From: a virus
DNA length: 23,685 nucleotides
Direction: 5' to 3' (one strand)
Virus record (IMG/VR): IMGVR_UViG_3300042400_000115
Coordinates: 1-23,685 of that record
The notes beneath the pieces were generated by a model. It saw only the letters and a list, made by a program, of their open reading frames with translations. It was not told the origin of the DNA and did no database searches. A program made the position numbers and the translations under genes. Positions 13,997 through 18,131 of this stretch are shown here, one piece after another (position 1 is the first letter of the stretch; each line of letters opens with the position of its first letter).

Positions 13997-14123
13997 CTTT
14001 CTTCTCCAGTTGTTCTAAGGACTTCTTGAGCCGCTCCATGAGCCGGGCGGCCTGGTTGTACTGCTTGACGGCGATGCGGAACTGCGCCTTCGTCGAGCGG
14101 ATTTTCTCTCGGGTTGTGTTCAT
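13953..14123 (-). CDS. Small basic coiled-coil protein (56 aa)
   Basis: The ATG at 14123 overlaps the helicase TGA (ATGA), so translation is probably coupled; no strong SD is seen. The 56-residue product (MNTTREKIRSTKAQFRIAVK, then [20 protein letters not shown]) is a single long basic amphipathic helix. It may be an accessory of the helicase or a nucleic-acid-binding factor, by position only. The last 44 bases overlap the next gene. Confidence 0.6.
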   Translation of the reverse strand: MNTTREKIRSTKAQFRIAVKQYNQAARLMERLKKSLEQLEKKDALARAKQKVKSAH

Positions 14124-15400
14124 TTCAGACTCTCCATTGCAATGTCGCTTAGGGCGCGCTTGTCATGCAGCGCGGCCCATATTTTCTCGTCTACCGTCTG
14201 GTTGGCGATCATGATGTAGCACCAGACGGCGTGGCGCTGCCCGGATCGGTGCAGGCGTCCGTTGGCCTGCTCGAACAATTCGAGGGACCAGGGCAGACTG
14301 AGCCAGACGAGGTGGTGGCCGCCGTGCTGGAGGTTAAGCCCGTGTCCGGCAGACTTGGGGTGTAGACATAGCAGGCGTACTCGTCCGGCGTTCCAGTCAT
14401 CAATGCTGTCAACCGTTCGGGCGTGAGGGAAGCGTCGCTGGAGTTCATTGAGTTCCTCTATGAAGTTGTAGAAGACGATAGTGTTGGCCTGCTGGTTCTC
14501 GGCCAGCAGTTCTTCAAGCCGGTCGAACTTGTGGCCGCTGAACCAGACCGGCTCTGGCGTGTAGACGAACCCAGCGGCCATCTGCGAGAGCTTTTGCGTC
14601 ACCACGGCAGCGTTGACGGCCACGGCAGTCGCATCGGGAAAGCGCGTGACGAAGTCCTTCTTCATCTCCTCGTAAGGCGCGCGGTCGGGCAGGTCTACCC
14701 GCACCTCGACCGTGTGCAGCGGCGGCAGCTTGTCCTTGTACTCGCCCGGCTCCAGCACGAAGGTGGACGGCTTGATGCGCTCCATGACCGCCTCCAGCGC
14801 CCCCGGACGCGGCTGCCAGTCGTTGAACTCGCGGTTGATCAGGTAAAAGTACTGCTGCTGGAACGCGCCCTTGGACCGGCCCAATAAAGCAGTAGAAATC
14901 ATCTTGCACTGGCCGAAGACGTCCTCCAGGCCGTTGCTGGTGAACGAGCCGGTCAGCCCCCAGCGGACCGGGCAGTCGAGCACCTTGGCGAGGGCCTTGA
15001 ACCGAGCGCCCGAGGGGTTCTTCAGGCGCGTGAGTTCGTCGAACACCACACCGTCGAAGTCCAGCGCCTGCTGCGCGAGCCATTGCAGGTTGTCGTAGTT
15101 GGTCACGACGACCTGGGCGCGGCTGCCGAGCGCGGCCAGACGCTGCGCGGGCGTGCCCACGGCCACGGCCATCGTCAGGCTAGGCGCCCACTTAGGCTGC
15201 TCGACCGGCCAGACTGTCTGCGCCACGCGTAGCGGGGCGATGACGAGCCAGCGCTTAACGACGCCGTCGCGGATCATGTCGCGCATGGCCGTCAGCGTGA
15301 TCGCGGTCTTGCCGGCGCCCACCGGCGCGAGCACCATCGCGCGGTCGTTGGCGTACAGGAAGTCAGCGGCCTGTTCTTGATACGGACGCAATGAAACCAT
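14120..15400 (-). CDS. SNF2-type DEAD/DEAH helicase
   Basis: This is a 426-residue protein. The ATG at 15400 has AAGGA about 9 bases upstream and opens with the Q-motif-like MVSLRPYQEQAADFL. Motifs: Walker A APVGAGKT (Lys31), IAPLRVAQTVW (Ia), DELTRLKNP (motif II, Asp121-Glu122), WGLTGSF (III, 147-153), TIVFYNFIEEL (IV), HPKSAGHGLNLQHG (V) and QANGRLHRSGQ (VI, 378-388). This is the two-RecA-fold SF2/SNF2 layout of compact phage helicases. It would move on duplex DNA or remodel protein-DNA complexes during replication or recombination. It overlaps the VRR-NUC gene by 38 bases, an association common in phages that suggests the two act together, for example on branched DNA. Confidence 0.9.
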   Translation of the reverse strand: MVSLRPYQEQAADFLYANDRAMVLAPVGAGKTAITLTAMRDMIRDGVVKRWLVIAPLRVAQTVWPVEQPKWAPSLTMAVAVGTPAQRLAALGSRAQVVVTNYDNLQWLAQQALDFDGVVFDELTRLKNPSGARFKALAKVLDCPVRWGLTGSFTSNGLEDVFGQCKMISTALLGRSKGAFQQQYFYLINREFNDWQPRPGALEAVMERIKPSTFVLEPGEYKDKLPPLHTVEVRVDLPDRAPYEEMKKDFVTRFPDATAVAVNAAVVTQKLSQMAAGFVYTPEPVWFSGHKFDRLEELLAENQQANTIVFYNFIEELNELQRRFPHARTVDSIDDWNAGRVRLLCLHPKSAGHGLNLQHGGHHLVWLSLPWSLELFEQANGRLHRSGQRHAVWCYIMIANQTVDEKIWAALHDKRALSDIAMESLK

Positions 15401-15650
15401 CGACGTGATCCTTATTCCACAAGCAAGCGTAGTTCTGGCGCAGCCGCGCCATGTCGGATTGAAAGACCTTTTGTAGCTCGGACAGCCGGCCGCCTGGCGC
15501 CTTGAGTTCGACAAACCATGTGCTGCCGTCGGGCAGGCAGACGACGCGGTCGGCCACGCCTCGGTGCGCGGGGCTGGTGAACTTGTAGGCCATACCGCCG
15601 AGGGCCTTAACCTGAGCAACGAAGTACCGCTCGATGGCCGCTTCTCTCAT
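15363..15650 (-). CDS. VRR-NUC domain nuclease
   Basis: This is a 95-residue single-domain protein of the VRR-NUC family (PF08774), a minimal PD-(D/E)XK nuclease. Predicted catalytic residues are Glu7 in the first helix, Asp34 in HRGVADRVV, and Glu48-x-Lys50 in WFVELKAPGG, followed by a conserved Gln region (LSELQKVFQ). Stand-alone VRR-NUC proteins cut branched or junction DNA. GGGAG precedes the ATG, which overlaps the previous TGA (ATGA). The downstream helicase overlaps it by 38 bases. Confidence 0.9.
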   Translation of the reverse strand: MREAAIERYFVAQVKALGGMAYKFTSPAHRGVADRVVCLPDGSTWFVELKAPGGRLSELQKVFQSDMARLRQNYACLWNKDHVDGFIASVSRTGR

Positions 15651-15817
15651 TTCGGCTCCCAGTCGTCGAACAGCCTCGCCGCCCGCGCCCGGATCAGGTC
15701 AGCCGCTTGGTACGGCTCGGCTGTCTCTGCGATCTGGGCACAGTCTTTGTACGCCGCCTTGACGGCGGCCTCAAGTTCTGAGCGGTAGCACAGGGTGTCG
15801 TCGTCATCTTTCGTCAT
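15647..15817 (-). CDS. Small acidic phage protein (56 aa)
   Basis: A strong SD (AAGGAGAACAC before ATG) and ATGA overlaps at both ends mark this as a real gene. The product is acidic and helical: MTKDDDDTLCYRSELEAAVK, then YQAADLIRARAARLFDDWEP. No family was recognised. It sits between the multi-module Cys-rich protein and the nuclease. Confidence 0.68.
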   Translation of the reverse strand: MTKDDDDTLCYRSELEAAVKAAYKDCAQIAETAEPYQAADLIRARAARLFDDWEPK

Positions 15818-16662
15818 GTGTTCTCCTTGATGCCGTGGGCGGCTTCAATGGCTCGTGCCACTTCTGTAAAAGACAGCATCGCCGCACCAAGCGGAACACA
15901 AGCCCTTTCAATCTCCTCCTCCGTCAGCGGCTTGCGCTGTGGCGGGGCGTTAATTGGTGTGGTCTTGACTGCATTGGCACAAAAAGTGTATCCACGCTTG
16001 ACGCACAACTCACACAGCGTTTTACACGCCACCCACTCCCGGCGCGGCTGTTTGCACTCAGGATGCACTTCATCGCACCCTTCCCAATGCGTCCGTACCG
16101 GCTGCGCCAGCCCTTTTAAGCATGGATTTTCTGTGGCGCACTTGCAGTCGGGGTACTGGCATTGCTCTGGCTGCGCTGCCTGCTTTGCCTTGTCCAGCCA
16201 TTCGCGTTTCACTGCAATTGGAGCTGCATCCCAAGTCAGCGGCGTTGCGCCACGGTACGTCGGATGTTTTGCGTACAGAGCCTGCGCAGCGCGGCTCAGT
16301 TTTACAGCCTCGCTCGGCTCCTGCTCTGCCAGCGCGTTTTCGTACCCACGTTGCGCTTCTGCCATGTCGGAATCAGATTGCACCGCCCCCCAAATGGCAG
16401 AGATGCCGTGGCCTTGTCTGGCGAGCCTTGCGCCTATTTCATATGGGCGCTCGGGGATGTCCGGCTCCTGCTCTGGCTGCGCCAGCCTCTCGCGCAATAG
16501 TTCCGCCGCATCAGTTGCCACTTGATGAGGGTACACAGTCACTATCGAACCACCATCTCGGGGCTTGCGAACCTGTATTTTTGTCAACGGGTGTTCACAC
16601 CTAGCAAGCAGCTCTAGCGCCTCCAGCGCCTGCTGCATCAGTTCTCTGTCAGTAGGGGGCAT
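15814..16662 (-). CDS. Multi-module protein with repeated Ala-Gln-Pro-Glu-Gln linkers and Cys-rich domain
   Basis: This is a 282-residue protein. The ATG at 16662 is chosen for the GAGAGGAGG SD; an ATG at 16698 would add 12 residues without a better site. It reads as short segments joined by nearly the same linker: LAQPEQEP (residues 60-67), LAEQEP (111-116), AAQPEQ (162-167) and LAQP (185-188). Segment 1 begins DRELMQQALEALELL. Segment 2 has RPYEIGARLARQGHGI. Segment 3 includes ALYAKHPTYRGATPLTWDAA. Residues 168-228 carry ten Cys (CQYPDCKC, WEGCDEVHPEC, CKTLCELC), probably zinc-binding. The C-terminus is KPLTEEEIERAC with ARAIEAAHGIKE. I recall similar proteins in Burkholderiales phages but know no function. 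It may be a modular adaptor or anti-host early protein (inference). Confidence 0.72.
   Translation of the reverse strand: MPPTDRELMQQALEALELLARCEHPLTKIQVRKPRDGGSIVTVYPHQVATDAAELLRERLAQPEQEPDIPERPYEIGARLARQGHGISAIWGAVQSDSDMAEAQRGYENALAEQEPSEAVKLSRAAQALYAKHPTYRGATPLTWDAAPIAVKREWLDKAKQAAQPEQCQYPDCKCATENPCLKGLAQPVRTHWEGCDEVHPECKQPRREWVACKTLCELCVKRGYTFCANAVKTTPINAPPQRKPLTEEEIERACVPLGAAMLSFTEVARAIEAAHGIKENT
16099..16485 (-). repeat. Four dispersed linker repeats in the multi-module gene
   Basis: On the - strand, copies at 16485-16462 (full), 16332-16315 (lacking the CAGCC part), 16179-16162 and 16110-16099 (short) share the core CTGGCGCAGCCAGAGCAGGA or parts of it. They encode the recurring Leu-Ala-Gln-Pro-Glu-Gln-Glu-Pro linker and separate otherwise unrelated segments. 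Confidence 0.75.
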
Positions 16663-16986: not shown

Positions 16987-17008
16987 CTACTTTTTTCTGT
17001 GCTATGAT
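16979..17008 (+). promoter_or_regulatory. Rightward sigma70-type promoter of the replication genes
   Basis: TTGTGC (16979-16984) is followed after 18 bases by TATGAT (17003-17008). The predicted start, around 17014-17016, falls at the ATG of the DUF2800 gene, implying a leaderless or nearly leaderless message. It shares its -35 bases with the leftward promoter. Confidence 0.6.
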
Positions 17009-17014
17009 GAGCAC
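16999..17014. promoter_or_regulatory. Palindrome over the rightward -10 (candidate operator)
   Basis: GTGCT-ATGATG-AGCAC is a perfect 5-base inverted repeat with a 6-base centre. It covers the TATGAT box and ends 1 base before the chosen start codon, so a bound repressor would block rightward transcription. No regulator gene is in the window. The palindrome is short and could be chance. Confidence 0.4.
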
Positions 17015-17015
17015 C

Positions 17016-18131
17016 ATGAAACACTCATCCATCGTCGGCGGCTCTACCGCCAAGCGCGTCATCATGTGCCCCGGCTCTGTCAAGCTGGTGCAGAAGATGC
17101 CCCCGCAGCCCTCCAGCGTCCACGCTGACCGTGGCACGATGCTGCACGACGTGATCAGCCGCATCCTGCTCGACCAGGGCGTCGTGATCGGGCAGTACAA
17201 ACACAAAGACCATGTACTAACTCAGGAGCTTTACGATGAGAAGATTGCACCTGCCTTGGACGCGCTCGACGAGATCGATCCCCACGGTCGGTTGGTTTAC
17301 GAGGTTGAAACACGCGTTGGTTTCGGAGATATTCTTCCTGGCGTGTTTGGTAGTACTGACTTGGTTGGCCGCATTGATGATCGCGCTATTGTTCTAGATT
17401 GGAAGTTTGGCGACGGCGTGGTGGTCGAGGCCAAGGAAAACGCGCAGTTGATGTTCTACGCCGCCGCGGCCATGCGGACCGATGAACTCAAATGGGCCTT
17501 CGAGGGCGCCACCGAGATTGAGTGCATCATCGTGCAGCCGCCGGCGATCAGGCGCTGGGTGACGACCAAGGAGCGCATCGCCCAGTTCGAGGTCGAGTTG
17601 GTGCGGGCGGTCAAGACCGCGCTGCTGGAGGACGCGCCATTACAGTCGGGCGACCACTGCCGCTGGTGCGCGGCCAAGCCGGTGTGCCCGCAGATGACCG
17701 GCGCTGTGGACCGGGCGCTCAAGCAGCAACTGATCAATCTGGACGTTGACACGCTCGGCCAGTATCTGCACAATGCCGACCTCTTGGAAGAATGGATTAA
17801 GGACTTGCGCGCGCTGGCCTTTGGCATGCTTGAGAAAAACATCAAGGTGCCGGGGTATAAACTTGTAAACAAGCAAGCGCGACGCAAGTGGGCCGATGAG
17901 AGCAAAGCCAAGCAGGCGCTGCTCTCACTCGGTCTGAAAGAATCTGTCGTCGTCGAGACTACGATCATGTCACCGGCGCAGGCCGAGAAGGCGCTCAAAA
18001 AGCGCTTTAGCGAACTGCCCGAGGACTTGATCAAGTCCGAGTCGTCAGGTACGACGCTCGCCCCGGAGGATGACCCCCGGCCAGCGGTGCAGTCGTTCAT
18101 CGGGCTGTCAAAAGCCCTTTCTAAACTGTAA
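17016..18131 (+). CDS. DUF2800 PD-(D/E)XK nuclease (Cas4/AddB-like, Fe-S cysteines)
   Basis: This 371-residue protein matches the phage DUF2800 family (PF10926). The ATG at 17016 is preferred; ATGs at 17004 and 17007 lie inside the predicted -10 box. Nuclease motifs: ADRGTMLHDVI, GSTDLVGRIDD (Asp115), IVLDWKFGDG (Asp128, Lys130) and NAQLMFYA (Gln144). Cys18 (CPGSV) and Cys215, Cys218 and Cys224 (HCRWCAAKPVC) have the one-plus-three spacing that holds a 4Fe-4S cluster in Cas4 and AddB. Family members are usually encoded beside a phage ssDNA-binding protein and DNA polymerase, as here. The likely role is exonuclease processing of ends during replication or recombination. It is the first gene of the rightward early unit. 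Confidence 0.85.
   Translation: MKHSSIVGGSTAKRVIMCPGSVKLVQKMPPQPSSVHADRGTMLHDVISRILLDQGVVIGQYKHKDHVLTQELYDEKIAPALDALDEIDPHGRLVYEVETRVGFGDILPGVFGSTDLVGRIDDRAIVLDWKFGDGVVVEAKENAQLMFYAAAAMRTDELKWAFEGATEIECIIVQPPAIRRWVTTKERIAQFEVELVRAVKTALLEDAPLQSGDHCRWCAAKPVCPQMTGAVDRALKQQLINLDVDTLGQYLHNADLLEEWIKDLRALAFGMLEKNIKVPGYKLVNKQARRKWADESKAKQALLSLGLKESVVVETTIMSPAQAEKALKKRFSELPEDLIKSESSGTTLAPEDDPRPAVQSFIGLSKALSKL

Follow-up and report, generated by a model that had tools for sequence, protein, structure and literature searches.

The window analysed here is the whole 23,685-nt stretch of the virus record IMGVR_UViG_3300042400_000115, and the gene under study occupies positions 15814-16662 on its minus strand, with an AGGAGG Shine-Dalgarno sequence directly 5' of the ATG (16662) and the stop codon at 15816-15814. 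An earlier note had divided its 282-residue product by four linkers, LAQPEQEP, LAEQEP, AAQPEQ and LAQP, all of which were located in the translation of the ORF; it had overlooked two more joints of this gene, one at 15945-15907 (PPQRKPLTEEE) and one at 15858-15817 (ARAIEAAHGIKENT). The order in the protein is S1-LAQPEQEP-S2-LAEQEP-S3-AAQPEQ-S4-LAQP-S5-PPQRKPLTEEE-S6-ARAIEAAHGIKENT, where S1 to S6 denote cassettes and J1 to J3 joints:

15814-16662, minus strand: mosaic cassette gene, 282 residues and a stop codon
16486-16662, minus strand: N-terminal cassette S1, residues 1-59, predicted helix-strand-strand-helix, pLDDT about 85-97
16462-16485, minus strand: joint J1 (linker 1), LAQPEQEP, CTGGCGCAGCCAGAGCAGGAGCCG, residues 60-67
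16333-16461, minus strand: cassette S2, residues 68-110, predicted helical, pLDDT about 90
16315-16332, minus strand: linker 2, LAEQEP, residues 111-116, a DNA repeat
16180-16314, minus strand: cassette S3, residues 117-161, predicted helical
16162-16179, minus strand: linker 3, AAQPEQ, residues 162-167, a DNA repeat
16111-16161, minus strand: cassette S4, residues 168-184, Cys-rich
16099-16110, minus strand: linker 4, LAQP, residues 185-188, with 13 nt in common with linker 1
15946-16098, minus strand: cassette S5, residues 189-239, Cys-rich
15907-15945, minus strand: joint J2, PPQRKPLTEEE, PPQRKPLTEEEIE, a DNA word in at least 120 IMG/VR stretches
15859-15906, minus strand: core of the C-terminal cassette S6, RACVPLGAAMLSFTEV, 90% nucleotide identity to L127
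15817-15858, minus strand: joint J3, ARAIEAAHGIKENT, a recurrent C-terminal joint with the alternative tail AIEAKLKEKNT
15363-15650, minus strand: downstream operon gene, a small ORF of 95 aa with no Pfam match
14120-15619, minus strand: SNF2/DEAD helicase (Pfam), downstream in the same operon
17004-18131, plus strand: DUF2800/PD-(D/E)XK nuclease (Pfam), a candidate recombination function

The downstream genes on the same strand, which also include a 56-aa ORF, overlap or nearly overlap, and we take the 95-aa product to be a VRR-NUC-like nuclease. The opposite strand carries the DUF2800/PD-(D/E)XK nuclease, a DNA polymerase A and a DUF5906 protein. From these neighbours, the gene looks like part of the apparent replication (early) half of the 23.7-kb record. 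On the virion side, a 650-aa ORF (722-2674) contains long internal repeats of type AADVPTLNQNTTGTAANVTGVVAVANGGTG and is tail-fibre-like.

Sequence searches with the window protein against Pfam, NCBIfam and the PDB returned nothing, and those against PHROGs returned no match below E=4. By tblastn against INPHARED, the whole protein had no match, and a composite consensus query gave weak matches to environmental phages and nothing stronger. In the AlphaFold model of the window protein, S1 and S2 were predicted with confidence, the linkers lay in loops between helices, and confidence was poor from S4 onwards; the pTM of 0.35 for the whole protein points to segments without a fixed mutual arrangement. 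Foldseek comparison of this model with BFVD and the PDB produced no significant match.

The gene belongs to a large family that appears to be undescribed: in the literature searched, which included few subscription journals, neither the AQPEQEP string nor any description of the family was found. The consensus over 130 ORFs reads MTxREAxxxALEAL...AIxAxxEALAQPEQEPVAW...LYTxPPQRxWxGLTDEE...IEAxLKEKN, and the general plan, as read from the sequences, appears to be [N cassette: helix ... helix]-J1(LAQPEQEPVAW)-[middle]-J2(PPQRKPLTDEE or QREWVGLTDEE)-[C cassette]-J3(ARAIEAAHGI or AIEAKLKEKN). All the viral relatives are metagenomic assemblies; copies on the host side were found in genome records of Limnohabitans, Polynucleobacter, Comamonadaceae and other Burkholderiales. 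Each phage record carries one to five linkers, all on one strand. Among the family members the middle cassettes contain no consistent domain, and a few are recognisable, such as DUF551, present in 2 of the 130 members and not in the window protein. Several variants of J1 were also observed: joints of type AALEAKDEPVAW stand in place of LAQPEQEPVAW in ORFs upstream of J2 in five stretches (L217, L225, L237, L241 and L243), and further phages have AEKQEP or AQQEP at the J1 position. A 428-aa member in a Limnohabitans genome (L153:148-1431) contains several linkers, namely AQPEQEP, QPTQQEP and others.

The claim that the linker is conserved at the DNA level was confirmed, with one caveat: repeats of 13-21 nt do connect the linkers of the window gene, but the 20-nt core quoted in the earlier note occurs only once in the window (16466-16485), the remaining copies being partial. 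Linkers 1 and 3 carry exact copies of the sequence TGCTCTGGCTGCGC (minus strand GCGCAGCCAGAGCA), and linker 2 a copy with 86% identity; a 21-nt repeat with 90% identity is common to linkers 1 and 2, and an exact 13-nt repeat links linkers 1 and 4 (16100-16112 and 16475-16487), 375 nt or 125 codons apart. A linker 23-mer is present in 50 IMG/VR stretches and a degenerate LAQPEQEP DNA pattern in at least 120; each of the 124 linker sites sampled lies in frame within an ORF. Repetition of the linker well beyond chance was confirmed.

Alignment of the joints at the DNA level showed that their synonymous sites are conserved as well. The two Glu codons of J1 are GAG in 93% and 96% of copies, compared with 52% in genome usage, and its Pro codons are position-specific, the first being CCA in 71% and the second CCT in 64% and CCG in 31%. 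Information falls to background beyond about -27 to +32 nt of J1 and beyond -12 to +34 of J2. In J2 (PPQRKPLTDEE), whose copies were sampled independently by its own pattern, 81 of the 125 copies carry one and the same 32-mer, CCACCACAGCGCAAGCCGCTGACGGATGAGGA, which codon usage would give with a probability of about 2.5e-5 per copy; GAT for Asp (100%), CGC for Arg (99%) and CTG for Leu (99%) are nearly invariant in carriers of 40-62% GC. The J2 32-mer stands unchanged in 78 loci, which are fragments and form 22 groups with no 500-bp similarity between them; this suggests that unrelated phages carry it. With their DNA letters almost frozen, the joints look like cut-and-paste sites of recombination. 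In the set of S1 homologues, which had not been selected by the linker, synonymous divergence of the linker does not increase with that of S1; linkers thus do not diverge at the pace of the segments. The history of the joints differs from that of the cassettes, which is what exchanges with their ends in the joints should produce.

Protein similarity breaks where the linkers are. Right ends of alignments fell at a linker in 55 of 69 cases, against 9.7 expected at random positions, although many of the pairs come from the S1 set and are not independent; the count took alignments over at least 35 aa, with 70% identity or more, that ended inside both ORFs, and "at linker" meant -3 to +12 aa of the linker start. 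The clearest pair, L204 and L205 (the whole contigs of L129 and L130), differs by 6 mismatches in 8,419 bp (99.9% identity), and the 2.3 kb leading up to the linker contain none of them; the linker itself has two synonymous differences, and after it neither the remainder of the gene nor the next genes are similar. In L123, linker 1 is fused to linker 4, S2-S4 of the window gene (375 nt, 125 codons) are absent, and the two alignments to the window overlap within the 13-bp repeat.

The earlier note had regarded the segments as unrelated cassettes, and separate searches bore this out for S1, S2, S5 and S6, which recur with other neighbours; breakpoints were mapped inside the linker. S3 and S4 had no relatives among the viral contigs. 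Order is not preserved: S1 was found at 21 other viral loci (75-98% identity), most of which continue after it with a sequence of their own. A relative of S2 (71%) stands in another context in L143; S5 follows directly behind S1 in L123 and L144 (96.5% nucleotide identity) and is partially present in L145; S6 lies behind another middle in L127 and occurs also in L185. L102 and L127 have a middle cassette in common (97%), and their similarity begins in J1 and ends in J2. Clustering of the cassettes showed that 85 of 91 ORF pairs with the same N cassette differ in the middle and 15 of 21 pairs with the same middle differ in the N cassette; the counts for C cassettes are upper bounds, some of these clusters being chained via a conserved joint. 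Exchange within one phage is illustrated by L066, which has three tandem paralogues (L066:5062-5971), two of them alike in the RNFCPRCGKRTADLTVIHTCTPP cassette that follows the linker but unlike in the sequence that precedes it. This cassette, immediately 3' of the linker in both, is zinc-ribbon-like. It is well supported by these comparisons that the cassettes between joints are mutually unrelated and appear to have been swapped both among phages and among tandem paralogues of one phage. The C cassette EEIEVLAKKHNGIYYDCDITFARAIEA was seen with two different tails, AHGIKENT and KLREKNNV, in L102:7326-7457 and L145:3284-3417, and this suggests that J3 is also an exchange point. The cassettes are under purifying selection, with pN/pS of 0.21 for S1, 0.26 for N-cassette pairs and 0.30 for middle and C-cassette pairs, the last including joint residues.

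Two known counterparts come closest: the Ea22/DUF551 group of mosaic early proteins and the boundary-sequence hypothesis for phages. According to PMC10834534, lambda and Stx phages have early proteins, Ead/Ea22, that combine a constant helical N part with swapped C domains and are called mosaic, and DUF551 is portable. The mosaic organisation and DUF551 are common to both groups; in contrast, our family showed no N-terminal homology to them, the window protein lacks a Pfam match to the Ead/Ea22 signature of N-terminus and coiled coil (IPR025153), and our family uses more cassettes, of smaller size. Lambda Ea22 matches phrog_250 and phrog_368, of which only phrog_250 is matched in the family, by 1 of 130 members; the family set matches chiefly phrog_60 and phrog_660. 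No fixed DNA joint is mentioned for Ea22 in the passages cited from PMC10834534. Boundary sequences are an old idea in which short conserved sequences serve as proposed sites of homologous recombination (discussed in PMC3029335). Short conserved DNA at the borders of exchanged modules, with breakpoints inside it, is what was found here, but these boundaries fall within a single reading frame, are common to many phages and are repeated within one gene. Smug et al. 2023 (PMC10684548) described fragment shuffling in phage proteins as ongoing and expected a large reservoir in unknown accessory proteins, whereas their main examples are tail fibres and spikes, endolysins and DNA polymerases, and the word 'linker' is absent from their text. 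In the shufflon of IncI plasmids (pilV), segments are inverted at repeats by Rci (PMC5430464). Conserved repeats between alternative coding segments are a likeness; the joints here, however, are direct and of several kinds, and an integrase was found neither in 42 of 44 phage records nor in the window. Diversity-generating retroelements employ a reverse transcriptase, a template/variable repeat and adenine-directed point changes, whereas the variants here are unrelated cassettes and not point variants of one repeat.

From these results, a hypothesis may be put forward, to which we assign a probability of about three in four: the gene represents a mosaic family of small, putatively modular early accessory proteins whose cassettes are swapped at the joints by homologous or annealing recombination. 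The joint would act as a short in-frame boundary sequence for homologous or single-strand-annealing recombination, and the partners could be co-infecting phages, prophages or tandem paralogues. We infer a general homologous or annealing system as the enzyme, namely the recombination proteins that happen to be available when phages co-infect a cell or meet a prophage; among the 44 phage records, many of them fragments, no recombinase is common to all carriers, with RecT in 3, ERF in 3 and the DUF2800 nuclease in 9 (window included). Since the joint would travel with each exchange, joints would stay similar while cassettes diverge. The products may resemble beads on a string: a helical N part that stays constant would display small exchangeable modules, which probably bind host or phage partners in a role comparable to that of lambda Ea22. 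That the joints are kept as DNA recombination sites, so that numerous unrelated phages take their early-protein cassettes from one loosely shared pool via a few universal in-frame joints, is a more tentative proposal, to which we would give only about a third of that confidence; if true, it would be a phage counterpart of combinatorial gene assembly for rapid host adaptation or counter-defence.

The dispute whether phage modules are joined by homologous exchange at boundary sequences or by illegitimate recombination is an old one, chiefly since boundaries are rarely visible, and PMC3029335 favours the latter for most mosaic borders. Applied here, it would mean random joins among which the survivors keep the frame and a flexible AQPEQEP hinge, the joint being a protein constraint and no substrate for recombination. 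The position of the linkers in loops of the AlphaFold model, their being in frame and the retention of the peptide despite synonymous dialects agree with such selection; moreover, exact repeats in the window of just 13-14 bp are short for general homologous recombination, and microhomology-mediated illegitimate recombination may be at work. Selection would explain the frame and the peptide, but neither the frozen synonymous sites of J2 across carriers of 40-62% GC nor the position-specific Pro codons of J1, and we regard this explanation as unlikely.

Far less probable still are the two other explanations that we weighed. Shuffling by a shufflon-like invertase or an integrase at the joint would account for short conserved DNA between variable segments, and the commonest J1 DNA (window 16470-16485) can pair as a small hairpin, TGGC-nCA-GCCA, in 66% of copies. 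This hairpin was set aside as a recombination signal: it is missing from several dialects, and its stability is barely above that of random synonymous versions. As the joints are direct repeats only, on a single strand per phage, of at least three kinds, and no recombinase is shared (Phage_integrase, PF00589, in 2 of the 44 records, many of which are fragments, and not in the window), a dedicated site-specific system is very improbable. Equally hard to credit are chimeras of short-read assemblies jumping between genomes at joints that are repeats of 23-46 nt, even though the viral relatives are all metagenome contigs. An assembly jump needs identical sequence, and the two differences in the L204/L205 linker, just before the break, speak against it; shared cassettes are, in addition, diverged (70-97%) in their new contexts, and the family also occurs in bacterial genome records such as those of Limnohabitans and Polynucleobacter. 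On the linker mismatches and the diverged cassettes, an assembly artefact was rejected.

Exchange by homologous or annealing recombination at the joints thus remains our preferred reading, and the boundary sequences, being visible, repeated and in frame in hundreds of contigs, make the question of mosaicism directly testable. The family defeats whole-protein clustering, the window protein falling in no Pfam or NCBIfam family. Its small phage early modules, which can replace one another, form a natural library in which host-takeover and counter-defence functions could be sought. A second mosaic family with other joints may exist among the small ORFs of the early regions of L204 (1-1800, reverse strand) and L205 (7700-8960), where the pieces M.REAVIRMAREAG..., ...FAALVAAAERE... 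and ...AIRARGNT recur.
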